Notes: generated by a model from the letters alone, not told the origin. Counted from the stretch's first letter, positions 6,429 to 22,590 are shown. The stretch: 64,000 bases of DNA from Geothrix sp. (GCF_030219325.1 NZ_CP126625.1:3584857-3648856), one strand, 5' to 3'. A program made the numbers and translations.

Positions 6429-7604
6429 ATGCGCACTTTCCTTCTGGGGGCGCTGCCCTGCCTGCTCATGGCCCAGGCGCCGCCCCTCTCCTATGACGAC
6501 ATCCTCACGCGGGCCCGCACGAGCCCCGGGCAGGACCGGATCGAGGCCCTGCTGGCCGAACGCCACCGGGCCCTGGGCGGTACGCGGGGCTTCCTCCGCG
6601 AGGGGCCCTCCCTGGGCCTCTCCGCAGGCCCGCGCACCCGCACGGCTGGCCCTTCCACGACGGACCAGTCCGTCGATCTGGATCTGCCCCTGTTCCTGTC
6701 GCCGGGCATCCGGCGGCGGCTGGAGGCGTCCCTGGGCCAGGCGGATCCGGCCCTGCGCGGGGCCTCCCGGATCGAAGCCCGGTTCCACCTGCGCCAAGCC
6801 TACCTGGAGGCCTGGCTGGCCGAGCGCCTGCTTCACCTCCGCGAGGCGGACCTTGCCACGGTCCGGACCTGGCTCAAGGCCGCCCAGGCGCGCCTGGAGG
6901 CCGGAGCGGACGCCGGGTTCCAGGTGAGCCTGGTGGAGGGCGAAGCGCTCCGCGCCGAGGCGGATCTCGACGAGGCCCGTCGGCAGCGGCTGAACGCCTG
7001 GGTGGGCCTTCGGACCGCCGCCGAGGTCCCGGGGACGCCCGTTCCCCTCATGGATCCTGGCGACCCACTGACGCTCTCCACGGATGGGCTCCAGGCCAGG
7101 TTCGAGGCCAGCACCTTGCGCAAGGCCATCCAAAGCCGCCTGGATCTGGAGGAGCAGGCCCTGCGCCACCAGGAGGCCCTGGCCACCAGCCGCTGGAGCC
7201 TGCGGGGCAGCTACGCCCGGGAGGGCGAGGAGCGCATCGGCAAGGTCGGCCTGGCCTACCGCTTCTCCCGCCCCGGTGAAAGCCAAGCTCTGCGCCGCGA
7301 GACCGAGGCCACCCTCCAGGCCACCCGGCGCGAGCTGGAGGTGGCCCTACTGGAGCTGGATGCCCGCTTCCAGTCGGCGCTGACGCGGCTTCAGGTCGCC
7401 CCCCCGGCCCTGCCCTTCAAGGGTTTCGACCTGTCCCTCCACGCCATCAGCCTGCGGCTCAGCGAGGGCAGGGAACGGCCTTCCGAGGCCCTGCCCATCC
7501 GCCGCCTGCTCCTGGAGGCCCAGGCCGCGTCCTACCGCCGCCTCCAGGCCGCCCACCTTCTCAGCGCCGAACTCCAGGCCCTCACGGCCGAGGTGAACCC
7601 ATGA
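6429..7604 (+). CDS. TolC-like outer-membrane efflux channel
   Basis: 391 aa with a signal peptide (MRTFLLGALPCLLMAQA). The body is long Ala/Leu/Arg-rich helices in two pseudo-repeats (YLEAWLAERLLHLREADL and a later RREL-VALLELDARF-SALTRL), which is the OEP pattern of TolC, CusC and CzcC. It is shorter than typical TolC (about 470 aa), as many CzcC-like proteins are. The stop overlaps the start of the adaptor gene (ATGA), so the two are translationally coupled. It forms the exit duct of the pump below. Confidence 0.85.
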   Translation: MRTFLLGALPCLLMAQAPPLSYDDILTRARTSPGQDRIEALLAERHRALGGTRGFLREGPSLGLSAGPRTRTAGPSTTDQSVDLDLPLFLSPGIRRRLEASLGQADPALRGASRIEARFHLRQAYLEAWLAERLLHLREADLATVRTWLKAAQARLEAGADAGFQVSLVEGEALRAEADLDEARRQRLNAWVGLRTAAEVPGTPVPLMDPGDPLTLSTDGLQARFEASTLRKAIQSRLDLEEQALRHQEALATSRWSLRGSYAREGEERIGKVGLAYRFSRPGESQALRRETEATLQATRRELEVALLELDARFQSALTRLQVAPPALPFKGFDLSLHAISLRLSEGRERPSEALPIRRLLLEAQAASYRRLQAAHLLSAELQALTAEVNP

Positions 7605-8737
7605 ACCATGCCATCCCATGTTCCCTGCTGACCCTTGCCCTGACGGCCACCGTGGCCTGTGATCGCAAAGCCGCACCTCCAGAGGCCAAGGAAACCCACA
7701 AGGAGGGGATCACCCACGCCGAAGAGGGCGCCCATCTCCCCCTGAAGGACATCCGGGGCCTCCGCTTCCTGGTGGTTCCCGAACCCAGGGCGGAAGGCGC
7801 CTGGTATCCCGCCGAGGCCATCGGCGACGAGTCCGCCCAGGCCGTCCTCAGCAGCCCCGTGAAAGGAATCGTCTCGGCCATCCTGATCGCGCCGGGGCAG
7901 CATGTCGGCAGCGGCGCGGGACTGGTCACCCTCCAGAGCCCCGAGCTGGCCCGCTTCAAGGCCGACTGGCTGTCCGCCCGCGCTAAGCGTGACCGCGCCG
8001 AGGGCGAACTGGCCAGGGAGCAGCGGCTTTTCGAGGCTCAGGCGGGTTCGCGCCGAGAGCTGGAAGCCGCTCGGAGCGAGGCCGCCACGGCCCGAGCCGA
8101 CGAAGAGGCCGCCCGTCTCGCCCTGGAGGCCCGGGGCCAGAATCCGGAAACCGCAGGCGCCGTCCTGACCGTGAGGGCCCCGAAGGGCGGCACGGTCACG
8201 GCCTACAAGATCCAGCCCGGCCAGGGGGTCGAAGCGGGTCAGGACCTGGGCAGCTTCCAGGCCGCCTCGGCCGCCATCGCACGCCTTGAATTGCCGCTCC
8301 CCGCCCCGGAGAACTGGCGGCCCGGTGCCGTGACCGAGGTCCGCCAGAGCGATGGCCAGCGCTGGAGGGCCCGGCTGGAGGGCACCCCCACCGTACTCAC
8401 CACCGATACCCGGCGACTCAGCTATCGCCTGCGCCTTCTGGGTGGTTCCCTGCCCATCCCCGGCGCTTCCCTGGAGGTGAAGGTGCCCCTTGAACGCGCG
8501 GTCTACCTGCCCCAGGCGGCGCTCCAGCAGACGGACGGCCGCTGGGGAGTCTTCGTGGTGGACCAGGCAGAAGCGGTGTTCCGGCCCGTCAGACGCGGGC
8601 TGGACGTCAAGGACGAGGTGCTTGTGGCGGAGGGGCTGAAGTCCGGCGAGACAGTGGTGGCCGAGGGCGCCTACCTCCTCAAGGCGTTCCAGCAGAAGCG
8701 GGCCCAGCCCGAAGCGGGGGGCGGCCATGGCCACTGA
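7601..8737 (+). CDS. periplasmic adaptor (membrane fusion) subunit of RND efflux
   Basis: 378 aa. The N-terminus is lipoprotein-like (LTLALTATVACDRKAA, a possible lipobox with Cys near residue 19). Then come a lipoyl-type segment (VKGIVSAILIAPGQHVGSG), an alpha-helical hairpin rich in Arg/Glu/Ala (about 120-190), the second lipoyl half and a beta-barrel/membrane-proximal domain. This is the HlyD/CusB order. A His-containing tail (GGGHGH) and an early HKEGITHAEEGAH stretch could bind metal. It overlaps the channel gene by 4 bp and the pump gene by 11 bp. Confidence 0.85.
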   Translation: MNHAIPCSLLTLALTATVACDRKAAPPEAKETHKEGITHAEEGAHLPLKDIRGLRFLVVPEPRAEGAWYPAEAIGDESAQAVLSSPVKGIVSAILIAPGQHVGSGAGLVTLQSPELARFKADWLSARAKRDRAEGELAREQRLFEAQAGSRRELEAARSEAATARADEEAARLALEARGQNPETAGAVLTVRAPKGGTVTAYKIQPGQGVEAGQDLGSFQAASAAIARLELPLPAPENWRPGAVTEVRQSDGQRWRARLEGTPTVLTTDTRRLSYRLRLLGGSLPIPGASLEVKVPLERAVYLPQAALQQTDGRWGVFVVDQAEAVFRPVRRGLDVKDEVLVAEGLKSGETVVAEGAYLLKAFQQKRAQPEAGGGHGH

Positions 8738-11700
8738 CCCCAGCCTCCCGGACGGATCAGACATCCCCCTTGATCCGGCCATGCCGCACGATCCCTACAC
8801 GGTCTACACCCCGCAGCATCGAACGCTGATCCGCCGCTGGTTCGACTTCCTCCTCCCGCACAAGGGATGGGTGTTCGCCCTCAGCCTCGCCTGGGGGCTG
8901 GCGGGCGTCTTCACCTTCGCCCAGCTCAAGCGCGACCTCTTCCCGGACATGAACCTGCCCATCCTCAGCGTGCTCATCCAGAGCCCAGGCCGGGCCACGC
9001 CTGAACTGGAGCTGTCCGTGGCCCAGCCCACCGAGCAGGCCCTGGGCGGCATGCCCGGGGTCAAGCGCGTCGCGACGACGGTGCTCCCCGAGCTGGTCCA
9101 GGTGGTGGTGACATTTGACGGCGCCACGGATCCCTGGCGGGCGCGGCAGCTGGTGGCCGAGCGGCTGACCGGAGTGATCGGGAGCTTCCCGACTGGCACC
9201 CGTCCGCCCCTGATGTCCAGCGCGTCCGGCCGCCTTCAGGAGCTGATGGAGGTCGTCCTGGAAAGCGAGAGCGTGGACCCCATGAAGCTGCGGGACTACG
9301 CCGAGCAGGTGCTGGGGCCCAGGCTCCAGTCCCTGCCCGGCGTGGCCCGGGTGGAGCGCCTGGGGGGACAGGAGAGGTCCCTCCAGATCACGCTGGACCC
9401 CGGAAAGCTACGCAACCTCGGAGTCAGCCTGGATCGCGTGATGGCGGCCCTGGAACAGAGCCACCAGGACATGGCGACGGGGGTGCTGGAGATCCAGGAC
9501 AAGGGCTGGTTCATGACCGTGGGCAGCCTCGCGGCGACCCCAGAGGAAGTGCGCCGGCTCCCCGTGCAGGCCGCCAGGGGGATCGTGACCCTGGGTGAAG
9601 TAGCCGATGTTCGCGAGGCCCCGGCCTTCCGCCGGGGACTGGCTCGGCACAACGGCCACGAGGATGTGAGCCTGCGCATCGTGAAGCAGCCAACCGCGGC
9701 CACGCTGGACGTGGCCGAGGGCGTTCGCACCGCCGTGGTGGAGCTGAAGAAGGGCCTTCCCGAGGGCATGCGCCTGGAGGTGATCTACGACCAGGGGCGT
9801 CTCGTCACCCGTGCCCTGAACGGCGTGACCCTGGCCCTGCTGGTGGGCGGTATCTTCGTGGCCATGGTCCTCGTGGTCCTCCTCGGGAACCTGCGCGGGG
9901 CCCTGCTGGTGCTGGCCGTGCTGCCCCTGGCCACCTTCGGGGCCGCGATCCCCCTGCACTTCGCCGGGCTGGGCCTCAACGCCATGACCCTCGGTGGCCT
10001 CGCCATCGCCGTGGGTCTCCTGGTGGATGCTGCGGTGATCATGGTGGAAAACCTGGCCCACCGGCTGCACACGCACAAAGAACAGGAGGAATCGCGCCGC
10101 GTGGCCCTCACCCGTGCCGCCGCCGAGGTGGCCACGCCCATCCTCATCGCCGTCCTGGTGATCCTGGCCGTCTTCATCCCCCTGCTGTCCATGGGCGGCA
10201 TCGCGGGCAAGCTCTACGCGCCCCTGGCCGTGGCCGTGGCCTCGGCCATGACCATCAGCCTGGTGCTGACCTTCACCCTGGTGCCCGCCCTGGTGGAGCG
10301 GTTCCTGCCCCCCGGCACCTCCCTGGATGAGCCGCGCTTCATCGCAGCCATCAAGCGGATCTACGCGCCAGCCCTCGGCTGGGCCCTGCACCACGGCCCC
10401 CTGGTGCGCGTGCTGGCCCTTGGCCTCACCGTTCCCAGCCTCTGGCTGGCGTTTCAGCTCGGCACCAACTTCCTGCCCACGCTGGACGAGCGGGCCTTCA
10501 TGCTCCTCTCCAAGGTGCCCGCGGAAAGCAGTCTGGAGGCCGTCGATCAGGCCAACGCACACCTGGATGCCCGCCTGAAGACCATCCCGGGTGTGGAATC
10601 CGTCTACCGGCGGAGCGGGCGCGCCGAGGTCACCGAGGACCCCTGCCCCATCACCGACAGCGAGATCATGGTCATCCTGAAACCTGTTGCCGATGAGCGC
10701 ACCGTCGGGATGGAGGTGCTGGAGGCCGCCGAGGCCATGCCCTTCCCCGTGGAGGTGAACACCCCCATGCAGGAGCGCATCGCCGAGGGCATCGGGGGCA
10801 CGCCTGCGGACATCCAGGTGAAGGTCTTCGGCCGCCACCTGGAGGCCATCCGGGGAGCGATCCCGGAACTCCGGGAGCGGCTTCTGAAAGTCGAGGGCGT
10901 CCGCAGCGTGACCCCGGACACGCCGGACCCCATGCCCCGCTGGCGACTGGTGCTCGACGAAGAGGCCTTGCGCCGTCTGGGCGTCCCCCGCCCCCTGGTG
11001 ACGAGGACGCTTCAGGCGGCCCTCCAGGGCCTCCCCTCCGAGATCCGCTTCGAGGGTCCCCAGCGCATCGAGCGCATGGTGCGCTTTCCCAATGATGGCC
11101 GGATGAGCCCCGAGACCCTGAAGGGCACGCCCCTGGTCCTGGACGATGGCCGTGCCCTGACACTGGGCCAGGTGGCCCGCTTTGAGGAGGCCTCCACGCC
11201 CACCCTGGTCCGTCGGGAATCCGGTCAGCGGCGCCTCGGCCTCAACATCCGGACCTCCGGCGACCTCGGCGGCACGGCCAGGCGCATCGAGAAGGCTCTC
11301 GAGGGCATGAAGCTTCCCGAGGGCGCCTTCATCAAGCTGGGGGGGAAGATCGAGGAGACCCGGGAGACCCAGCGCCGGCTGGGGCTCGCCATCGTGGCCG
11401 CCCTGGCGCTGGTGGTGGGTCTCCTCTACATCGCCCTGAAGACCTGGCGGGAGGTGCTGGTGGTGCTCGCCACCCTGCCGGACGCCTTCGCGGGCGCGCT
11501 TGTGGCGTTGTGGCTGACCGGGGAGACCTGGAACATCAGCTCCATCGTGGGGATGATCGGGCTGTTCGGCGTGGCGGTGCAGAATAGCCTCGTGCTGATC
11601 ACCCAGGCCAAGAGCCTGATGGCGCAGGGTCTCCCCTTCGAGGCTGCCCTGCGGGAAGCCAGCCTGGGCCGCGTGCGCCCCAAGCTCATGACCGCCGGGG

Positions 11701-11879
11701 CCGCCATCCTCGGCCTGATGCCCATGCTGTTCGGCTTCGGCGGTTCCGAGCTGGAGCGCCCCCTGGCCATCGCCATGGTGGGCGGCCTCGTCACCAGCAC
11801 CCTCTTCACCCTGCTGGCCCTGCCTAGCTTCTACGCTTGGGTGGGGAAGCCGAAGGACGGGGAGGTCCCCACCGCCTGA
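8727..11879 (+). CDS. RND-family efflux pump (CzcA/CusA-like inner-membrane transporter)
   Basis: 1050 aa, normal for RND pumps; proton-driven export across both membranes together with the two preceding genes. There are two sets of one plus five transmembrane segments around two large periplasmic loops. The TM4 motif is AIAVGLLVDAAVIMVEN. Heavy-metal RND pumps have a DFG-type sequence with an acidic residue here; this one keeps only the later Asp, so metal specificity is not certain. The N-terminus has an extra cytoplasmic stretch of about 45 residues rich in Pro/Asp before the first TM. The Cys/His-rich small gene upstream argues for metals, while the TM4 motif is closer to drug pumps. Confidence 0.88.
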   Translation: MATDPSLPDGSDIPLDPAMPHDPYTVYTPQHRTLIRRWFDFLLPHKGWVFALSLAWGLAGVFTFAQLKRDLFPDMNLPILSVLIQSPGRATPELELSVAQPTEQALGGMPGVKRVATTVLPELVQVVVTFDGATDPWRARQLVAERLTGVIGSFPTGTRPPLMSSASGRLQELMEVVLESESVDPMKLRDYAEQVLGPRLQSLPGVARVERLGGQERSLQITLDPGKLRNLGVSLDRVMAALEQSHQDMATGVLEIQDKGWFMTVGSLAATPEEVRRLPVQAARGIVTLGEVADVREAPAFRRGLARHNGHEDVSLRIVKQPTAATLDVAEGVRTAVVELKKGLPEGMRLEVIYDQGRLVTRALNGVTLALLVGGIFVAMVLVVLLGNLRGALLVLAVLPLATFGAAIPLHFAGLGLNAMTLGGLAIAVGLLVDAAVIMVENLAHRLHTHKEQEESRRVALTRAAAEVATPILIAVLVILAVFIPLLSMGGIAGKLYAPLAVAVASAMTISLVLTFTLVPALVERFLPPGTSLDEPRFIAAIKRIYAPALGWALHHGPLVRVLALGLTVPSLWLAFQLGTNFLPTLDERAFMLLSKVPAESSLEAVDQANAHLDARLKTIPGVESVYRRSGRAEVTEDPCPITDSEIMVILKPVADERTVGMEVLEAAEAMPFPVEVNTPMQERIAEGIGGTPADIQVKVFGRHLEAIRGAIPELRERLLKVEGVRSVTPDTPDPMPRWRLVLDEEALRRLGVPRPLVTRTLQAALQGLPSEIRFEGPQRIERMVRFPNDGRMSPETLKGTPLVLDDGRALTLGQVARFEEASTPTLVRRESGQRRLGLNIRTSGDLGGTARRIEKALEGMKLPEGAFIKLGGKIEETRETQRRLGLAIVAALALVVGLLYIALKTWREVLVVLATLPDAFAGALVALWLTGETWNISSIVGMIGLFGVAVQNSLVLITQAKSLMAQGLPFEAALREASLGRVRPKLMTAGAAILGLMPMLFGFGGSELERPLAIAMVGGLVTSTLFTLLALPSFYAWVGKPKDGEVPTA

Positions 11880-12202: not shown

Positions 12203-15200
12203 CTAGTTCCAGACGTTCCCGCTGGTGGTGTGGCCCTGCCCGTGGCAGGAGAGGGCGCAGCCGCCTCGGCCGATGGTGGCATTCACGGTGTAGGTGAGGG
12301 CCCCGGTGGCCGGCTGGGCGCCGCCGCCGAACTTGATGGTGTCGCTGGAGAGCTGGTCCGGCGTGATGCGGACGGCGGAGGTATCCAGGTACTTCCAGTG
12401 GTCGATGGCGCCCTGCTTGTTCTGGGTCATGTCGTGGCAGTAGTCGCAGGTCGTGTTGTGGGCCCCGGGGTTGTTGTGGCGGCCCGTGGCGTCGTTGTAC
12501 TGGGTGGCCGTGGAGGCCACCTTGTGGCAGGCGATGCAGTAGGTGGTGGCATTCACCGTGAGGCTTCCGCTCTGCCAGCCCGGGGTGGTCTGGCCGCCAT
12601 GGCAGCTCACGTTGGAGCAGGTGAAGGCCGAGGCGCTGGCCGTGATCCCGGCGGTGCCGGACTGGGCATTGAAGGTGGGATCGAGGGACACGGAGGCGGG
12701 ACCGGACAGGATCGGGCTGGTCAGCCGCTTGTTGGCATTGCTGTAGTGGGTGTTGGCCGTGTCCCCGGGCACCGAGCCCACGTGGCAGGCTTCGCAGACC
12801 GAGGCGGTGAGGGAAGCGGGCAGCACGGGCGTGGTCCGGGTGAAGGTCAGCAGGGAGAGGTGCTTCAGGTGGGCGCCCTGGAGGTTCGGCCAGGTGGAGC
12901 CCGTGGGGCCCTGGGTCTTGAAGTTTGTGCCCACGTGGCAGGACAGGCAGGTCCCCGCGCCGGTGGCGACTGCGGTGGGATCGGCCAGGGTGTGGCAGAC
13001 GTTGCAGGTGGGTCCGGTCTTGGCGGAGACGCCTCCCAGGTCATGGCAGGTGATGCACTCCCCGTTGAACTGGGCCAGGGTCAGGGTCTGGTGGTGGTTG
13101 CCACCGGTGCTGACGTCGGTGCTGAGGAAGGGCACGGGGTGCGCCACGCCGGATCCCTTGGGCATGGCCCAGTGGTTCGTGGTCGGCGTGTGGATCTGGC
13201 TGTGGCAGGTGAGGGCGCAGCCGCCATCGCCCTCGGGGTAGGTGGCGTTGATGGTGTAGGTGGCCGGGCCGGTGATCGGGTAGGTGGTGTTGCCGAGGTT
13301 GAACTTGATGGTGGTGCTGGGCAGCTTGTTGGTGCTGCTGACGGGTGTGGTGTTCAACTCCGCGAAGTGGTTCTGCGCGCCGGGGGTGGCCAACGTCATG
13401 TCGTGGCAGATGGTGCAGTCGAGGGTGCCCGCGGTGGAGTGGGTGCCCCAGGCATGGCGTCCGATGGCGTCGTTGTACTGGGAGGGCGTGGTCCCGTAGT
13501 TGATGGCGTGGCACAGGGTGCACTGGGAGGTCGAGGCGATGGTCCCGGTCCGCCAGTTGGGGGTATCCAGGCCACCGTGACAGCTGGTGCTGGAGCAGGT
13601 GAGGGCCGCGACATTGAAGCCCGCCGTGTTGCCGCTCTGGGCGTGATACAGGGCGTCGATGCTCACGGTGCCCGGCCCGGTCGGGGTGGCGACCCGGGCA
13701 TTGGCATTGTTGTAGTGCGTGGTGCTGCCGGTGCCGGCATTGGCATGGCAGGTGTTGCAGGTCAGGGTCGTGAGCAGGCCCATGTGCTTGCCGTGGGCGC
13801 CGGCGATGCTCGGGAAGGAGGCCCCCGTGGGACCGGTGGGCAGGCCGGAAGAACCCACGTGGCAGGACAGGCAGGTTCCGACGCCGGTGGCCACCTGGGT
13901 GGGATCGGCGAGGGTGTGGCAGGTCGAGCAGACGGGGGCCGTGGCCAGAGGGGAGGTGCCGGAATAGGCGTGGCAGGTGGCGCAGTCGGCGGCGAAGGTG
14001 GCCGCCGTGGCGGTCAGGTGGCCGTTGCCCTGCGTGTCCGTCTGGCCCGCGTAGAAGGGCACCGCGTGGGGGGCGCCGGAGGCGGTCCACGTGTCGATCG
14101 CAGCCGCATGGATGTGGGTATGGCAGGTGAGGGCGCAACCGCCGTTGCCCTGGGTGGCGCTCGTCACCGTGTAGGTGCCGGGGCCCGTGACGATGGCGGG
14201 GTTGAAGACGATGGTGCCGCTGGGCAGCTGATCCGCGGGCACGCCCGTGGCGACGCCGTCCACCGCGCCGGTGTTGAGGTACTTGAAGTGCGCCAGGGCC
14301 CCGGCGGAGCCGTTGCCCATGTTGTGGCAGGTGGTGCAGGCGATGGCGTTCGCCGCGTTCGTGGCGTTGTGGGTGCCGAGGCTGTGGCGTCCGAAGGCGT
14401 CGTTGTACTGGGTGATCGTTCCCGCTGAAACGGCCACGCCGTGGCAGGCGGTGCACTGGGTGCTGCTGTTGAGGGTGCCCACCTGCCAGCCCGGGGTGGT
14501 CTGGGCGCCGTGGCAGCTCACGTTGGAGCACGTCAGCGAGGCCGGGGTGAAGGCCGGGGCCCCGCCCGTCTTGGCGGAGAACAGCAGGTCGATGGACACC
14601 GTGCCGGGCCCCGTGGGCACGCTGGAGCGGGCATTGGCGTTGTTGTAGTGGGTGAGGCTGCCGGTGCCGGCGCTGGCGTGGCAGGTGTCGCAGGTCAGCG
14701 CCGTGGCCAGGGCCAGATGCTTCGCATGGGCCCCGGCGATGCTGGGGAAGCTGGCGCCGGTGGGGCCCTTCGGAAGGCCGGAGGGGCCCACGTGGCAGGA
14801 GAGGCAGGTCCCGGCGCCCGTGGCCGCGACGGTGGGGTTGGCCAGGGCATGGCAGGCGGAGCAGAGCGGGGAGGTCGCGTTGGGGGAAGTCCCGGTGTAG
14901 GCGTGGCAGTTGCCGCAATCGGCCGTGAAAATGGCCGCCGTGGCGCTCAAGTGGCCATTGCCCTGGGCATCCTTCTGCCCGGTGAGGAAGGGCACCGGGT
15001 GGGGCACGTTGGCGAAGGTCCATTCGTTCACGGCCGTGGTGTGGATGTGGGTGTGGCAGGTGAGCGCGCAGCCCCCGTTGCCCTGGGTGGCGCTCGTCAC
15101 GGTGTAGGTGCCTGGGCCCGTGACGATGGCGGGGTTGAAGGAGATGGTGCCGCTGGGCAGCTGGTCGGCGGGGCTTCCCGTGGCGACGCCGTCGACGGCC

Positions 15201-18200
15201 GGCGTGTTCAGGTACTTGAAGTGGGCGAGGGCCCCGGCCGAGCCGTTGCCCATGTTGTGGCAGGTGGTGCAGGCGATGGCGTTGGCCGCGTTCGTGGCGT
15301 TATGGGTGCCAAGGCTGTGCCGGCCGAAGGCATCGTTGAACTGGGCCGTGGTCGCGGAGGAGGCCGCCACACCATGACAGGCCGTGCACTGGACGCCGCT
15401 GTTGATCGCGCCCGTCTGCCAGCTGGGGGTGGCCTGGCCGCCGTGGCAGCTCACGTTCGAGCAGGTGAGCGCGGCCGGGGTGAAGAGGGAGGTGCCTGTC
15501 TTCGCGTTGAACGTGGCATCCATGGACACGGGCGCGGGGCCCGTGGGCGTGGCGACCCGCGCGTTGGCATTCGCATAGTGGGTGGCGGTGCCGCTGCCGC
15601 TGCCGGCGTGGCAGGTGTTGCAGGTCAGCGCCGTGGCCAGGTTCATGTGCTTGGTGTGGGCGCCGGCGATGCTGGGGAAGGTGGTGCCGCCGGGGCCCTT
15701 CGGCAGTCCGCTGGTGCCCGCATGGCAGGACAGGCAGGTGGCGGGGCCCGATGCGGCCAGGGTGGGATCCGCGAGCTTGTGGCACACGTTGCAGAGCGGC
15801 GCCGCGGCCATGGGCGAGCTGCCCGAATAGGCATGGCAGGCGGAGCAGTCCGCCGTGAAGACGGCCGCGGTGGCGGTGACGTGGCCATTGCCCTGGGTGT
15901 CGGTCTGGCCCGAGAGGAACGGGATGGCGTGCGGGGCGCCGCTGGCGGTCCAGGTGTCCACCGTCGCCACGTGGATGTGGGTGTGGCAGGTGAGGGCGCA
16001 GCCGCCGTTGCCCTGGGTGGCGCTCGTCACCGTGTAGGTGCCAGGGCCCGTGACGATGGCGGGGTTGAACACGATGGTGCCGCTGGGCAGCTGGTCCACG
16101 GGCAGGCCCGTGGCCACGGCGTCCACCGCCGGGGTGTTCAGGTACTTGAAGTGGGCGAGCGCGCCAGCCGAGCCGTTGCCCATGTTGTGGCAGGTGGTGC
16201 AGGCGATGGCGTTGGCGGCATTGGTGGCGTTGTGGGTGCCGAGGCTGTGGCGCGCGAAGGCGTCGTTGTACTGGGTGGTGGTCGCCGAGGAGGCGGCCAC
16301 ACCGTGGCAGGCGGTGCACTGCGTGCCGCTGTTGAGGGTGCCGCCCTGCCAGGCGGGGGTCCCCTGACCGCCGTGGCAACTGACGTTCGAGCAGGTGAGC
16401 GAGGCGGGCGTGAAGGTGGGGTTGCCACCACTCTTCGCCTTGAAGGTGGGATCCATGGCCACGGTGCCGGGTCCAGTGGGGGCCGCGGTCCGCGCGTTGG
16501 CATTGGCGTAATGGGTGGCGGTTCCCGTGCCGGCGCCGGTATGGCAGGTGTTGCAGGTCAGGGCCGTGGGCAGGGCCAGGTGCTTCGCATGGGCTCCGGG
16601 AAGGCTGGGGAAGGCCGTGCCGGCGGGGCCGGCGGGCAGGCCCGCGGGACCGACGTGGCAGGACAGGCAGGTCCCGGCCCCCGTCGCGGCCAGGGTGGGA
16701 TTGGCCAGGGCATGGCAGATGGAGCAGAGCGGGGAAGCGGCGTTGGGCGAGGTTCCGGAGTACGCATGGCAGTTGGCGCAGTCCGCCGCGAAGATGGCGG
16801 CCGTGGCCGTCAGGTGGCCATTGCCCTGGACATCCTTCTGTCCGGTGAGGAAGGGCACCGGATGCGGGACGTTGGCGAAGGTCCAGTCATTCACGGCGGC
16901 GGTGTGGATGTGGGTGTGGCAGGTGAGGGCGCAGGTGCCGCTGCCCTGGGTGGCGCTGGTCACCGCGTAGGTGCCGGGGCCCGACACGATGAGGGGGTCG
17001 AAGGCGATGGTGCCGCTGGGCATCTGGTCCGCAGGCGCTCCGCTCGAGGCGCCGTCGACCGCCGGGGTGTTCAGGTACTTGAAGTGGGCCAGGGCGCCGG
17101 GCGAGCCATTGCCCATGTTGTGGCAGGTGGTGCAGGCGACGGCGTTGGCCGCGTTCGTGGCGTTGTGCGTGCCGAGGCTGTGCCGGCCGAAGGCGTCGTT
17201 GAACTGGGTGATGGTGGTCTTGGAGGCGGCCACGCCGTGGCACGCGGTACATTGTGTCCCGCTGTTGATCGTGCCGAACTCCCAGGCGGGCGTGGCCTGG
17301 CCCCCGTGGCAGCTCACGTTCGAGCAGGTCAGGGAGGCGTCGGTGAACGCGGGCGCCCCGCCCGTCTTGGCTGCGAACAGGGGATCGATGGCCACGCTGG
17401 CGGGCCCGGCGAGCTGCCAGAGCCGGGCATTGGCGTTGTCGTAGTGGGTGAAGGTGCCGCTGCCGCTGCCGCTGTGGCAGGTGTTGCAGGTCAGCGCCGT
17501 GGCCAGGTTCATGTGCTTGGCGTGGGCGCCGGCGATGCTGGGGAAGCCGGTGCCCCCGGGGCCCTTCGGCAGTCCGCTGGTGCCTTCGTGGCAGGAGCGG
17601 CAGGTGCCGGCATTGGTGCCCGGCAGGGTGGGATCCGCCAGTTGGTGGCATTCCTGGCAGAGCGGGGCCGTCGTCGTGGGGGAGGTGCCCGAATAGGCGT
17701 GGCAGTTGGCGCAGTCGGCGGCGAAGGCCGTGGCCGTGACGGTCAGGTGGCCATTTCCGCTGCTGGTGGTCATCCCGGCGAGGAAGGGGATCGGATGGGG
17801 GGCGACCTTGTCGTCGTGGCAGAGGGTCGCGTTGAAGCAGCCCGGCTGGGTACCTGCGGGCGCGGGGATGGCGGGGTGGCCGATCGGATTCTTCGCCGAG
17901 CCCGGGAAGTGGCACTGGACGCAGACGGCGGCATTGGACGGATCGGTCGTCACGTGGGTGAAGGTCGAGCCAGGGCCTAGGCGCCAGGGCTTGGGCGGAT
18001 GCGGGGCGCTCACGCCATGGCAGGTGACGCAGGCATTGGCGGCGGGGCCGCCCGAGAAGTCCTTGTCGTGGCAGATCTGGCAGGAGGCCAGGCCCGCGCC
18101 GGCCGGCGTGCCGATCGCCGACTTGGCACGCAGGCCGTGGCTGCCCGGATCCGCGAAACCGGGCGTGGACTGGTGGTGGCACCCTGTCGTCATGCAGGTC

Positions 18201-18430
18201 GGGATGCCGCTGCCGACCCTGAGGATCGAGATCTCGTGGCACTTGGTGCACGCGGCCAACCCCGTCACCGCCTGCCCGCCATGGACCGTCATCCAGCCCG
18301 CCGGGTGGTAGTCCCCGTAGTACTGGGTGGTGTTGGCCGGGCTCTTGGTGCCGCCGCATCCGAACAGGCCGAGGACACAGAGGACCGCCGCGATCGCCAT
18401 CCGATGCCACTTGGTTTGCTGGTCCTTCAT
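12203..18430 (-). CDS. giant multihaem c-type cytochrome lipoprotein (about 54 haem motifs)
   Basis: 2075 aa from the ATG at 18430 (AAGG 9 nt upstream). The signal is a lipoprotein one: KWHRMAIAAVLCVLGLFGC, lipobox LFGC. I count about 54 haem-binding motifs: 40 CXXCH, 7 CX4CH (mostly CSNVSCH), 6 CX3CH (CALTCH or CALSCH) and one CX5CH candidate near the N-terminus. After six N-terminal motifs come six modules of about 311 residues. Each has the order CXXCH x4, CX4CH, CXXCH x2, CX3CH. The CSNVSCH ... CTACHG pair matches the Geobacter-type CxxxxCH/CXXCH domain. It is probably anchored at the outer membrane and used in extracellular electron transfer. No catalytic domain is visible. It is monocistronic and divergent from uraA. 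Confidence 0.93.
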   Translation of the reverse strand: MKDQQTKWHRMAIAAVLCVLGLFGCGGTKSPANTTQYYGDYHPAGWMTVHGGQAVTGLAACTKCHEISILRVGSGIPTCMTTGCHHQSTPGFADPGSHGLRAKSAIGTPAGAGLASCQICHDKDFSGGPAANACVTCHGVSAPHPPKPWRLGPGSTFTHVTTDPSNAAVCVQCHFPGSAKNPIGHPAIPAPAGTQPGCFNATLCHDDKVAPHPIPFLAGMTTSSGNGHLTVTATAFAADCANCHAYSGTSPTTTAPLCQECHQLADPTLPGTNAGTCRSCHEGTSGLPKGPGGTGFPSIAGAHAKHMNLATALTCNTCHSGSGSGTFTHYDNANARLWQLAGPASVAIDPLFAAKTGGAPAFTDASLTCSNVSCHGGQATPAWEFGTINSGTQCTACHGVAASKTTITQFNDAFGRHSLGTHNATNAANAVACTTCHNMGNGSPGALAHFKYLNTPAVDGASSGAPADQMPSGTIAFDPLIVSGPGTYAVTSATQGSGTCALTCHTHIHTAAVNDWTFANVPHPVPFLTGQKDVQGNGHLTATAAIFAADCANCHAYSGTSPNAASPLCSICHALANPTLAATGAGTCLSCHVGPAGLPAGPAGTAFPSLPGAHAKHLALPTALTCNTCHTGAGTGTATHYANANARTAAPTGPGTVAMDPTFKAKSGGNPTFTPASLTCSNVSCHGGQGTPAWQGGTLNSGTQCTACHGVAASSATTTQYNDAFARHSLGTHNATNAANAIACTTCHNMGNGSAGALAHFKYLNTPAVDAVATGLPVDQLPSGTIVFNPAIVTGPGTYTVTSATQGNGGCALTCHTHIHVATVDTWTASGAPHAIPFLSGQTDTQGNGHVTATAAVFTADCSACHAYSGSSPMAAAPLCNVCHKLADPTLAASGPATCLSCHAGTSGLPKGPGGTTFPSIAGAHTKHMNLATALTCNTCHAGSGSGTATHYANANARVATPTGPAPVSMDATFNAKTGTSLFTPAALTCSNVSCHGGQATPSWQTGAINSGVQCTACHGVAASSATTAQFNDAFGRHSLGTHNATNAANAIACTTCHNMGNGSAGALAHFKYLNTPAVDGVATGSPADQLPSGTISFNPAIVTGPGTYTVTSATQGNGGCALTCHTHIHTTAVNEWTFANVPHPVPFLTGQKDAQGNGHLSATAAIFTADCGNCHAYTGTSPNATSPLCSACHALANPTVAATGAGTCLSCHVGPSGLPKGPTGASFPSIAGAHAKHLALATALTCDTCHASAGTGSLTHYNNANARSSVPTGPGTVSIDLLFSAKTGGAPAFTPASLTCSNVSCHGAQTTPGWQVGTLNSSTQCTACHGVAVSAGTITQYNDAFGRHSLGTHNATNAANAIACTTCHNMGNGSAGALAHFKYLNTGAVDGVATGVPADQLPSGTIVFNPAIVTGPGTYTVTSATQGNGGCALTCHTHIHAAAIDTWTASGAPHAVPFYAGQTDTQGNGHLTATAATFAADCATCHAYSGTSPLATAPVCSTCHTLADPTQVATGVGTCLSCHVGSSGLPTGPTGASFPSIAGAHGKHMGLLTTLTCNTCHANAGTGSTTHYNNANARVATPTGPGTVSIDALYHAQSGNTAGFNVAALTCSSTSCHGGLDTPNWRTGTIASTSQCTLCHAINYGTTPSQYNDAIGRHAWGTHSTAGTLDCTICHDMTLATPGAQNHFAELNTTPVSSTNKLPSTTIKFNLGNTTYPITGPATYTINATYPEGDGGCALTCHSQIHTPTTNHWAMPKGSGVAHPVPFLSTDVSTGGNHHQTLTLAQFNGECITCHDLGGVSAKTGPTCNVCHTLADPTAVATGAGTCLSCHVGTNFKTQGPTGSTWPNLQGAHLKHLSLLTFTRTTPVLPASLTASVCEACHVGSVPGDTANTHYSNANKRLTSPILSGPASVSLDPTFNAQSGTAGITASASAFTCSNVSCHGGQTTPGWQSGSLTVNATTYCIACHKVASTATQYNDATGRHNNPGAHNTTCDYCHDMTQNKQGAIDHWKYLDTSAVRITPDQLSSDTIKFGGGAQPATGALTYTVNATIGRGGCALSCHGQGHTTSGNVWN
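12225..17725 (-). repeat. six tandem 930-933-bp modules inside the cytochrome gene
   Basis: The same nucleotide blocks recur with a 930-934 bp period. For example, the block coding CTTCHNMGNG lies near 14311, 15244, 16174 and 17107, and the block coding the C-x-x-CHAYSG motif near 13966, 14899, 15833, 16765 and 17697. Modules 1-4 (nearest the N-terminus) are the most alike. Modules 5 and 6 (about 12225-14030) have drifted. This fits in-frame tandem duplication with the newest copies in the middle. Confidence 0.85.
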
Positions 18431-18611
18431 GGCCCACATCCTTGAGAAACACGTGCCCGGGTTGATGGATCGGAGGAGGGGGCGGAAGCCGGTGGCCTTC
18501 GAGCGGTCAGGCACCTGCCCGTGGGGGGTCCTGGGTCTCCTGGCCCTTCGGGAGACGCTTCCTCCGGCCCTTCCTGCTTTCAAGTGGTTGTCGCGTGCGA
18601 AGTATCCTCAG

Positions 18612-18693: not shown

Positions 18694-19004
18694 GTCTAGT
18701 TCCGGTCGTATTTCTGTCCAAACCGGACCCTGAACATCCCCTCCCCCCACGTGGGTGCCAGGACCGGCTCCCGGCCGTCCTGGCTGTTGCAACAGCCTCT
18801 TGGATCAACGGGATGCGGCCCCGTCCCAACGGGCCCCGGGGCAGCCCTGCCGGGGCGCCTCGCGTAAACAACATGTGACGCCCGCACTGCCTGCCGTCTG
18901 AAAAAATCATCTGGCGTTCCCGTTCCGCCAGGGCCCATCTCCCCGCCGTTCTTCCGGCCATGGGTTCACCCCCCCTTCAGGACGATGTCTTCCCCGAGGC
19001 CCCC

Positions 19005-20285
19005 ATGCTGCGCCGCACCATCGACGTCGACGAACGCCTGCCCCTGGCGCAGACCGTGCCACTCAGCCTGCAGCACCTGTTCGCCATGTTTGGCGCCACC
19101 GTGCTGGTGCCCTTCCTCTTCAAGGTGAATCCGGCCACCTGCCTGCTCATGAACGGCGTGGGCACGCTCATCTACCTCTTCGTGGCCAAGGGCCGCATTC
19201 CGGCCTACCTGGGCTCGAGCTTCGCCTTCCTCTCGCCGGTCTTCGCCGTGCTGGCCGCGGGTCTCAGCTACTCCGCCGCCCAGGGCGGCTTCATCGTCTT
19301 CGGCCTCATCTTCATCCTGGTCTCCCAGGTGGTGCGCTTCGCAGGCACCCGATGGATCGACGTCATCTTCCCGCCCGCCGCCATGGGCGCCATCGTGGCC
19401 ATCATCGGCCTGGAGCTGGCCCCCGTGGCCACCAACATGGCGGGGCTCACGCCCGGCCCCGCGGTGCTGGGCATGCCTCTATCCACGGCCCTGGTCGTGT
19501 CCCTCGCCACCCTGGCCGTGACGATCCTGGCTTCGGTCCTGCTCCGGGGCTTCCTGGCGGTGATCCCCGTGCTGCTGGGCGTCATCGCCGGCTACCTGCT
19601 CTCCCTGGGCCTCGGCGTGGTGGACTTTCAGGCCGTGCGCCTGGCGCCCTGGTTCCAGGTACCCACCCTCTACGCGCCCACTTTCAACCTGCAGGCCATC
19701 CTCATCATCCTGCCCGCCTCCCTGGTGGTGCTGGCCGAGCACGTGGGCCACCTGGTGGTGACGGGCAACATCGTGGGCAAGGACCTGATGAAAGATCCCG
19801 GGCTGCACCGCTCCCTGCTGGGCGACGGCCTCTCCAACGTGCTGTCGGGCCTGGTGGGCGCCACGCCCAACACCACCTACGGCGAGAACATCGGCGTCAT
19901 GGCCATCACCAAGGTCTACAGCGTGTGGGTCATCGGCGGCACGGCCTGCATCGCCATCCTGGTGTCCTTCTCCGGCAAGCTGGCGGCCATCATCCGCAGC
20001 ATCCCGGTGCCCGTCATGGGCGGCGTCTGCATCCTGCTGTTCGGCGTCATCGCCGCGGCGGGCATCCGCATGCTCATCGAGAAGAAGGTGGACTACACCC
20101 AGTCGCGCAACCTCATCCTCACCTCGGTGGTGCTCATCAGCGGCATCAGCGGCGCCGCCGTGAAGCTGGGCACCGTCGAGCTCAAGGGCATGGCCCTGGG
20201 CACCGTGGTGGCCATCGCCCTGAGCCTGCTGTTCTGGGGCTTCGACCGCCTGGGCCTCAGCAACGATTCCGAAGCGCAGCACTAA
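19005..20285 (+). CDS. uraA: uracil permease (NCS2 family, UraA-like)
   Basis: 426 aa. An upstream in-frame ATG exists, but starting at 19005 gives MLRRTIDVDERLPLAQTVPLS, which aligns with the start and length of known UraA (about 429 aa). It is a proton-coupled symporter with some 14 TM segments. UraA-type signatures are LSLQHLFAMFGATVLVP at the first TM, AEHVGHLVVTGNIVG with the substrate-site Glu, and TPNTTYGENIGVMAITKVYS with the second. It is the first gene of an uptake operon with a purine-type permease (28 bp gap) and a Tsx-like porin. Uracil is the best substrate guess. Confidence 0.9.
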   Translation: MLRRTIDVDERLPLAQTVPLSLQHLFAMFGATVLVPFLFKVNPATCLLMNGVGTLIYLFVAKGRIPAYLGSSFAFLSPVFAVLAAGLSYSAAQGGFIVFGLIFILVSQVVRFAGTRWIDVIFPPAAMGAIVAIIGLELAPVATNMAGLTPGPAVLGMPLSTALVVSLATLAVTILASVLLRGFLAVIPVLLGVIAGYLLSLGLGVVDFQAVRLAPWFQVPTLYAPTFNLQAILIILPASLVVLAEHVGHLVVTGNIVGKDLMKDPGLHRSLLGDGLSNVLSGLVGATPNTTYGENIGVMAITKVYSVWVIGGTACIAILVSFSGKLAAIIRSIPVPVMGGVCILLFGVIAAAGIRMLIEKKVDYTQSRNLILTSVVLISGISGAAVKLGTVELKGMALGTVVAIALSLLFWGFDRLGLSNDSEAQH

Positions 20286-20313
20286 TCCCCATTCCCACCT
20301 TCCGGAGGACAGC

Positions 20314-21732
20314 ATGGAACGGTTTTTCGGTTTGAAAGCCAGGGGCACCACGGTGGCCACGGAGGTGCTGGCCGGCACCACCACCTTCATCTCGCTGGCC
20401 TACGTGATCTCGCTGATCCCCAATGCCTTCCTCAAAGTGGCCGGCATCGCGCCGGCGCAGGGTTTCACGGCCTTCGTGGTCTGCGCCATCATCTCGACGC
20501 TGATCGGCGCCTTCTACGCGAACCTGCCCATCGCCTTCGCCTCGGGCATCGGCCTCTCGGCCTTCTTCGCCTTCACGGTCTGCGCCCCGGCCAACCAGGG
20601 CGGCATGGGCTACACCATCCAGGTGGCCCTCACGGCCCTGCTGCTGGAGGGCATCGTCTTCATCTTCCTCAGCGCCATGAAGGTGCGGGAACAGTTCATG
20701 GACGCCATCCCCTTATCGCTGAAGAAGGGCATCTCCGTGGGCATTGGCCTCTTCATCGCCATCATCGGCTTCGTGGATTCCGGCGTCACCCAGGTGGGCC
20801 TGAAGTTCGAGCCCGACACCATCTTCCCCGTGCTGAAGAACGACCCCTCGGCCCTCTTCGGCCTGCACGACGTGAACAACCTCTTCATCGCGAAGTTCTG
20901 GGACCACGGTCACCTGACCCCGGCCTTCTGGAGCGTGGTGGGCCTCTTCCTCATCGCCGTGCTGGTGGCCAAGCGCGTGAAGGGCGCCATCCTCATCGGG
21001 ATCCTCGTCATCACGCTGGTGGGCCTGCTGCCCGTGTCCTTCGGTGGCGGCTTCACGCACCTGCCCAAGGGCGCCCTCTTCCAGATTCCCGCCTGGCCCA
21101 AGATGTTCCAGTACGACTGGACCTGGACCAAGTCCCTGGGCGGCATGATCAACATCTTCATCATCCTGTTCACCCTGCTCTTCGTGGACATGTTCGACAC
21201 CATCGGCACCCTCATGGGCATCGGCGCCCAGGGCAAGATGCTGGACAAGGAGGGCCGCTTCCCCGGCGCCTCCAAGGCCTTCATGGCCGACGCCGTGGGC
21301 ACCACCTTCGCGTCCATGTTCGGCACCACGGCCATCACAGCCTACATCGAGAGTGCCTCCGGCGTGGCCGAGGGCGGCCGCACGGGCCTCACGGCCCTGG
21401 TGGTGGCGGGCTGGCTGGCCATCGCGCTCTTCCTGTCGCCCCTGTTCCTCATGGTGCCGCTGCAGGCCACCTCGCCCGCGCTCATGATGATCGGCTTCTT
21501 CATGCTGTCCGAGATCCGGGAGATCGCCTTCGACGACATCACGGACGCCATCCCGGCGTACCTGGCCGTCATCGTCATGCCCTTCACCTTCTCCATCGTC
21601 AACGGCATCGCGCTGGGCATGATCGCCTACACCGTCCTGAAGACCGCCACGGGCCGCTTCAAGGAAGTCAACCCGATCATCCTCGCGCTCTCCGTCGTCT
21701 TCCTCCTCAAGCTCCTCTTCCTGTCCGCCTAG
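20314..21732 (+). CDS. AzgA-type purine (adenine/guanine/hypoxanthine) permease
   Basis: 472 aa, 12-14 TM helices. Family landmarks are MERFFGLKARGTTVATEVLAG at the start, TTFISLAYVISLIP, ANLPIAFASGIGLSAFFAF, and the LFVDMFDTIGTLMGIG and GTTAITAYIESASGVAEGGRTGLTAL blocks that form the purine site in AzgA/PbuG/GhxP. GGAGGA lies just before the ATG. It sits between the uracil permease and the Tsx-like porin. Which purine is carried cannot be read from the sequence. Confidence 0.9.
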   Translation: MERFFGLKARGTTVATEVLAGTTTFISLAYVISLIPNAFLKVAGIAPAQGFTAFVVCAIISTLIGAFYANLPIAFASGIGLSAFFAFTVCAPANQGGMGYTIQVALTALLLEGIVFIFLSAMKVREQFMDAIPLSLKKGISVGIGLFIAIIGFVDSGVTQVGLKFEPDTIFPVLKNDPSALFGLHDVNNLFIAKFWDHGHLTPAFWSVVGLFLIAVLVAKRVKGAILIGILVITLVGLLPVSFGGGFTHLPKGALFQIPAWPKMFQYDWTWTKSLGGMINIFIILFTLLFVDMFDTIGTLMGIGAQGKMLDKEGRFPGASKAFMADAVGTTFASMFGTTAITAYIESASGVAEGGRTGLTALVVAGWLAIALFLSPLFLMVPLQATSPALMMIGFFMLSEIREIAFDDITDAIPAYLAVIVMPFTFSIVNGIALGMIAYTVLKTATGRFKEVNPIILALSVVFLLKLLFLSA

Positions 21733-21756
21733 GACCCATCCCTTTCCGGAGTCTTC

Positions 21757-22590
21757 ATGACCAAGTTCGCCCTCGCCCTCCTCGCCGCCGCGGCCCTGCC
21801 CCTGGCCGCCGCCGACTGGAGCGACACCCTCATCGGCTACCGCACCGGCAACCAGTTCCGGGAGCCCGGCATCGACGGCACCCTGCACAAGGACATCCTC
21901 CAGCTCAGCCACGTCAGCGGCTGGGCCTACGGCACGAACTTCCTCAACGTCGACATGCTCATGTCCGACAAGGGCGACCCGGCGGCCAACGGCCAGAGCG
22001 GCGCCAACGAGGTCTACGTGGTGTACCGCACGGCCCTGAGCCTCGGCAAGATCAGCGGCAAGGACCTGGGCTTCGGCCCCGTGCGCGACGTCTCCTTCAC
22101 CGCCGGGTTCGACTTCAACTCCAAGGACAATGCCTTCGCCTCCAAGAAGCGCTTCCTGGTCTTCGGGCCCACCCTGAACTTCAAGGCGGGCAGCGGCTTC
22201 TTCGACCTGGGCCTCTGGGGCTGCCACGAGCAGAACTACAACGGCATCGTGGGCAAGTCCGTGGACTACAAGACCACCTACACCGTGACCGCCGCCTGGG
22301 GCCTCCCCTTCCAGGTGGGCCGCGTGGGCGCCGAGTTCAAGGGCTACGCCAACTACATCGGCGCCAAGGGCAAGGACGGCTTCGGCGTGGAGACCAAGCC
22401 CGAGACCCTGGCCAACCTCTTCCTGATGGCAGACCTGAGCCCCCTCTTCGGCACCAAGAAGAAGGTCTACGCGGGGCCCGGCTTCGAGTACTGGAACAAC
22501 AAGTTCGGCGGCCAGAACAGCGACGCCCCCGCCCCCGCCACCAACCGCCGCGTCACCGCCCCCATGCTCCAGGTGCAGGTCCACTTCTAG
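21757..22590 (+). CDS. Tsx-like nucleoside-specific outer-membrane channel
   Basis: 277 aa. A cleavable signal (MTKFALALLAAAALPLAAA) leads into WSDTLIGYRTGNQFREPG, typical of Tsx/OmpK channel proteins. Alternating aromatic/polar beta strands follow, ending in VQVHF with a C-terminal Phe for BAM recognition. It would let nucleosides or nucleobases cross the outer membrane for the two inner-membrane permeases encoded just upstream, with gaps of 20-30 bp in one operon. Confidence 0.82.
   Translation: MTKFALALLAAAALPLAAADWSDTLIGYRTGNQFREPGIDGTLHKDILQLSHVSGWAYGTNFLNVDMLMSDKGDPAANGQSGANEVYVVYRTALSLGKISGKDLGFGPVRDVSFTAGFDFNSKDNAFASKKRFLVFGPTLNFKAGSGFFDLGLWGCHEQNYNGIVGKSVDYKTTYTVTAAWGLPFQVGRVGAEFKGYANYIGAKGKDGFGVETKPETLANLFLMADLSPLFGTKKKVYAGPGFEYWNNKFGGQNSDAPAPATNRRVTAPMLQVQVHF

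Follow-up and report, generated by a model that had tools for sequence, protein, structure and literature searches.

The locus described here raises the question of whether a single lipoprotein can carry 54 haems, how so many sites came to stand in one chain and what purpose such a number serves. It lies in a stretch of 64,000 nucleotides (the window, positions 3584857-3648856 of a complete, single-contig 3.73-Mb Geothrix genome), and the near relatives of this genome carry the names Geothrix and Holophagaceae. On the minus strand an uninterrupted reading frame spans 12203-18583 without an internal stop, and its GC content by codon position is 0.56/0.62/0.93. Translation likely begins at position 18430, at an ATG that AAGGA precedes by 8 nt; in the case of another candidate, an ATG at 18439, the same AAGG would abut the codon. 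The long ORFs that face the gene on the plus strand were dismissed as GC-rich shadow frames, since the codon GC pattern and conservation favour the minus strand. A scan for sigma-70 promoters and terminators found none; Rfam at a lax threshold found no riboswitch in 7.2 kb of the window region, and returned only tRNAs on five related loci. The gene is divided as follows.

12203..18430, minus strand: 54-haem lipoprotein gene (open frame, Shine-Dalgarno sequence, GC by codon position)
18356..18430, minus strand: lipoprotein signal peptide, MKDQQTKWHRMAIAAVLCVLGLFGC, lipobox LFG/C
17816..18358, minus strand: N-terminal hexahaem domain (head), motifs CX2, CX4, CX2, CX2, CX2, CX5CH
16916..17815, minus strand: octahaem module 1, type A (string 22224223, module tree, TIGR01904 match)
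15983..16915, minus strand: octahaem module 2, type A (motif string, module tree, TIGR01904 match)
15053..15982, minus strand: octahaem module 3, type A (motif string, module tree, TIGR01904 match)
14120..15052, minus strand: octahaem module 4, type A (motif string, module tree, TIGR01904 match)
13202..14119, minus strand: octahaem module 5, type B (clusters in the tree with module 2 of 30-haem proteins; TIGR01904 match)
12242..13201, minus strand: octahaem module 6, type C (clusters in the tree with the final module of 30-haem proteins; TIGR01904 match)

A preliminary description of this DNA proposed a single lipoprotein with about 54 haem motifs in six repeated modules, and the architecture, lipobox, motif and His stoichiometry, family series and module phylogeny, all computed or seen directly, bear this out: there is one open frame, its product has a lipobox and the count is exactly 54. 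The precursor has 2075 aa; the mature apo-protein has a computed mass of 204.8 kDa, which 54 haems raise to ~238 kDa, at 38 residues per haem. The lipid anchor is Cys25 (codon 18356-18358), a position at which all 48 aligned N-terminal domains have Cys. All 54 CH dipeptides belong to CXnCH motifs (40 CX2CH, 7 CX4CH, 6 CX3CH and 1 CX5CH), and apart from the anchor every Cys of the mature protein falls within a motif. When the mature protein was shuffled with its composition kept, CXXCH occurred 0.33 times on average and never more than 3 times; 40 are observed. Written as spacings, the whole protein reads 242225 + 6 x 22224223, so the order given earlier for the eight-motif unit (CX2, CX2, CX2, CX2, CX4, CX2, CX2, CX3) is exact in all six modules; the CX5CH of the head was absent from that motif list. 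The reported period of 930-934 bp describes the first five modules (933/930/933/933 nt) and gives way to 918-960 nt around the sixth. Modules 4 and 2 are the same at 84% of their amino acids.

Whether every site binds haem can be judged from 105 octahaem modules taken from complete and partial relatives. As these were chosen by motif string, their Cys conservation is partly by construction; distal His played no part in selection. Conservation reaches at least 95% in exactly 16 Cys and 16 His columns, which gives every motif, CX3CH and CX4CH included, two Cys, its own His and one further His. His averages 17.8 per module, with 16 (90%) fixed, while other residues are 0-47% fixed. Among 48 copies of the head, six motifs are accompanied by seven near-invariant non-motif His. 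As far as sequence can tell, distal axial ligands would suffice throughout, with eight for eight motifs in the modules and seven for six in the head. A bis-His haem at each motif requires just the Cys/His ratio observed, and CX3CH and CX4CH therefore look like haem sites. That essentially all 54 CXnCH sites would bind haem with bis-His ligation is strongly supported by this conservation, and the non-haem sites suspected earlier among the odd spacings are disfavoured by the His count. It is very unlikely, in our judgement, that only some motifs bind haem and that CX3CH, CX4CH and CX5CH hold another metal or none: the spacings are non-canonical, and the CX3CH site is exchanged for CX4, CX7 or CX9 in relatives, but the eight conserved distal His leave none spare once CX3 and CX4 are counted as haem sites, and CX4CH is known in tetrahaem cytochrome c3 (PMC10454114).

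The mix of spacings had also been thought to point to a diversity of haem lyases. In a search that covered the CcsA and ResB families, and that lyases unlike either would escape, the source genome gave one Cytochrom_C_asm (CcsA) match and one ResB match, close together at 2.237-2.239 Mb, and it hence combines an exported CXnCH protein with cytochrome c maturation genes, as befits a c-type multihaem cytochrome. One CcsA match each was found in relatives with 54 (G027), 72 (G045) and 30 (G030) haems, and even in the 18-haem CX14CH relatives G002 and G009. Lyase diversity is therefore not needed and finds no support. A single general CcsA/ResB (System II) lyase would attach haem at CX2, CX3, CX4 and CX5 alike, and the series suggests that such an enzyme could serve sites from CX2 to CX5, possibly also CX14.

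The protein is one member of a family of graded length, whose members differ chiefly in module number. A full-length orthologue with 81% identity and exactly 54 haems lies on JANYLR010000031.1 (L010), and complete relatives carry 14, 18, 22, 26, 30, 34, 40, 42, 50, 54 or 72 haems. The count often follows 6+8n (14, 30, 54); the 14-haem relative L027 has one extra CH outside any motif. The commonest complete long form has 30 haems (head and three modules), and the source genome itself holds one copy (L064). In some long forms (L066, L068, L081) the head domain is repeated internally. Spacing also differs in this family: CX14CH occurs in shorter relatives with 18 and 22 haems (L028-L032, L053-L057), and CX7CH or CX9CH in others. 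One CcsA was detected in each of G002, G009 and G018, which are among the genomes of these types.

The module tree resolves the 30-haem proteins into three distinct types in the order A-B-C, and in the 54-haem protein places modules 1-4 with A, module 5 with B and module 6 with C. The high DNA identity between modules claimed previously is not found, as identity in the 54-haem gene is only 62-84%, with dS of ~0.46-0.63. At fourfold sites the A modules of the window gene are 0.64-0.66 identical, no higher than the 0.58-0.66 obtained when the two 54-haem species are compared at orthologous modules, and the array is therefore old in the source strain. Recent expansion in that strain is ruled out by this synonymous divergence; of the proposed ongoing expansion or contraction, what stands is that module number varies across species. 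The final ~60 bases of modules 1-4 are 0.89-0.98 identical, against 0.6-0.9 in the remainder (16916-17000, 15983-16070, 15053-15140, 14120-14200), which may reflect local gene conversion or constraint. The 72-haem protein of G045 is the positional counterpart of the window gene, beside the same purine permease. In it the first module type is expanded; its modules 2-4 cluster by themselves, with a DNA identity of 86-89%, and the expansion is therefore independent. This relative (L066 3942-11957) carries the hexahaem head twice, besides its own expansion of modules 2-4.

It is possible, if short of probable, that the Holophagaceae family acts as a haem-number accordion, in which whole octahaem modules are gained or lost between two fixed ends, the hexahaem head and the B-C pair, tuning reach or electron capacity and leaving working proteins of 14-72 haems. 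Cytochromes very rich in haem turn up frequently; the graded series on one architecture could make length a variable with other features nearly fixed. With its clean ligand count, the 14-72 series is a natural test series for the purpose of large haem numbers, and its members come both from Geothrix that can be cultured and from uncultured relatives.

The genomic setting offers clues to the role. The 54-haem gene is a solitary one; a xanthine/uracil permease gene diverges from it on one side, and an AcrB-type RND operon converges on it from the other. Its neighbours are thus RND efflux and purine permease genes with no porin beside it, unlike a porin-cytochrome conduit, and no MtrB/PioB porin was found at threshold in the source genome. 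The RND efflux operon comprises three genes at window positions 6429-11879 (outer-membrane factor, adaptor and AcrB family pump); at 18960-22590, two Xan_ur_permease genes are followed by a 277-aa protein without a Pfam match, which resembles a Tsx-type nucleoside channel, and the three may form a purine uptake operon. Multihaem proteins of the source genome were surveyed by pattern scan, and two further loci concern us here.

G000:C1:3501142-3504823 (L064): 30-haem paralogue, head and modules A, B, C
L073 285-5835, G000:C1 about 464284-469835: conduit-type cluster, four genes

The 30-haem paralogue (locus L064 4871-10820, G000:C1 about 3498870-3504820) has downstream of it the genes of a monohaem cytochrome, a DUF5777 beta-barrel and a membrane-type protein of 326 aa with one CXXCH, an order kept in three species (also L014, L087), and it faces a divergent Reg_prop sensor kinase and response regulator. 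A search of open-licence papers for DUF5777 found none. The cluster at 464-470 kb encodes a 463-aa barrel, predicted by inspection and without a Pfam match, a 157-aa pentahaem protein, a 214-aa hexahaem lipoprotein and a 961-aa decahaem lipoprotein that has a collagen-like GPT linker and belongs to the OmcA/MtrC family (454.9 bits with TIGR03507, whose cut-off is 209.3); it is likely an extracellular electron transfer conduit. Its hexahaem lipoprotein and the head of the 54-haem protein share 37% identity (E 1e-31), the CX5CH site among the matching features. Through this stand-alone homologue in an OmcA/MtrC-type cluster the head is tied to an outer-membrane conduit, and the link is the best clue to where electrons would enter.

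Taken jointly, these observations are probably best explained by a c-type cytochrome with ~54 bis-His haems, served by one System II lyase, lipidated and on the outer membrane, in which a hexahaem head and an octahaem chain would relay or store electrons and whose length would change by module duplication. We infer its haem occupancy, location, electron path and function; it likely serves extracellular electron transfer at the outer membrane, as a conduit or a store of electrons, with the placement predicted from a two-residue lipobox sorting rule that comes from other bacteria. The precursor would be exported, lipidated at Cys25 and set on the outer membrane. The head would probably take electrons at the membrane, because the conduit cluster described above, in the same genome, includes its hexahaem homologue. 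A chain would be formed by the six octahaem modules, one that passes electrons outward, or holds them before delivery, and the final acceptors could be minerals, humics, electrodes or partner cells. Reach or capacity would change with module number, through duplication of entire octahaem modules, mostly those of type A; the head and the B-C end are conserved, and added modules would lengthen or enlarge the chain and leave its ends unchanged.

The same haems might instead face inward, in a periplasmic or periplasm-facing lipoprotein that stores electrons when acceptors are absent and forms no surface wire. The solitary gene without an adjacent porin would suit this, as would the variation in module number between relatives that keep both ends, and a capacitor-like function has been suggested for secreted proteins with very many haems (PMC11495043). 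We nonetheless consider it unlikely, given that the head homologue accompanies an OmcA/MtrC-family cytochrome and the 30-haem paralogue an outer-membrane-type barrel. The present evidence fits a surface wire and a capacitor alike. That the protein is a nanowire subunit, which would polymerize outside the cell as OmcS, OmcE or OmcZ do, is the least probable of the alternatives: it is haem-dense and repetitive, and its shorter relatives contain CX14CH, a motif also present in OmcZ, but it bears a lipid anchor and has no sequence match to the solved filament cytochromes. AlphaFold2 gave no usable model, with a mean pLDDT of 35 for the head and modules 1-2 (33-row alignment) and 31 for modules 4-6 (17-row alignment), and we therefore make no claim of haem stacking. 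The reading we favour remains the lipidated outer-membrane cytochrome.

Among known systems, the predicted 54-haem protein belongs, with good support, to the class of giant multihaem c-type cytochromes. Each module contains the CX4CH...CX2CH pair of TIGR01904 (NCBIfam GSu_C4xC__C2xCH, CxxxxCH/CxxCH domain c-type cytochromes), a model named for Geobacter sulfurreducens and found within the Acidobacteriota mostly in the Geothrix/Holophagaceae group of bacteria. It matches the reading frame at six places with 29.3-46.2 bits, and the whole protein with 107.3 (curated cut-off 27), covering about 57-67 residues of each ~311-residue module; the octahaem module and the hexahaem head as such match no named model. 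Pfam Cytochrom_c3_2 and MtrC/MtrF domain II-IV also score above cut-off, the latter, from the OmcA/MtrC decahaem family (TIGR03507; Pfam PF22113), over several stretches. Membership of that family was nevertheless rejected, as the protein has 54 haems, not 10, and TIGR03507 falls below its cut-off (no match to the whole protein at E 0.001; 21.5 bits against 209.3 for the N-terminal part). Another close likeness is the 30-haem paralogue, with the same head, modules A, B and C and an identical motif string, unlike the 54-haem protein in having three modules rather than six and in the conserved gene order that it shares with a DUF5777 barrel and a monohaem cytochrome. A PDB sequence search at 0.001 found no match and a profile search only weak matches to small cytochromes, which sets the protein apart in sequence from the filament subunits OmcS, OmcE and OmcZ.

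By haem count, not by sequence, it may be likened to the 86-motif cytochrome of Desulfuromonas acetexigens, likewise a single very haem-rich protein of an electroactive host, though of a different phylum, and reported to be expressed under extracellular electron transfer growth (PMC12133095). An ANME-2c fosmid also encodes 86 motifs (PMC9012536), and still larger predicted secreted haem proteins, likened here by description, include one of 112 motifs in a Paludibaculum MAG, in the same phylum (Acidobacteriota), and others with >100 in Bacteroidota (PMC11495043). The preliminary ranking among the larger cytochromes known is thus fair, although 54 is no record beside the 86 of PMC12133095 and the 112 of PMC11495043. 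Among open-licence papers we found no published description of this Geothrix family, and what is new in it is the modular series together with its exact ligand bookkeeping.
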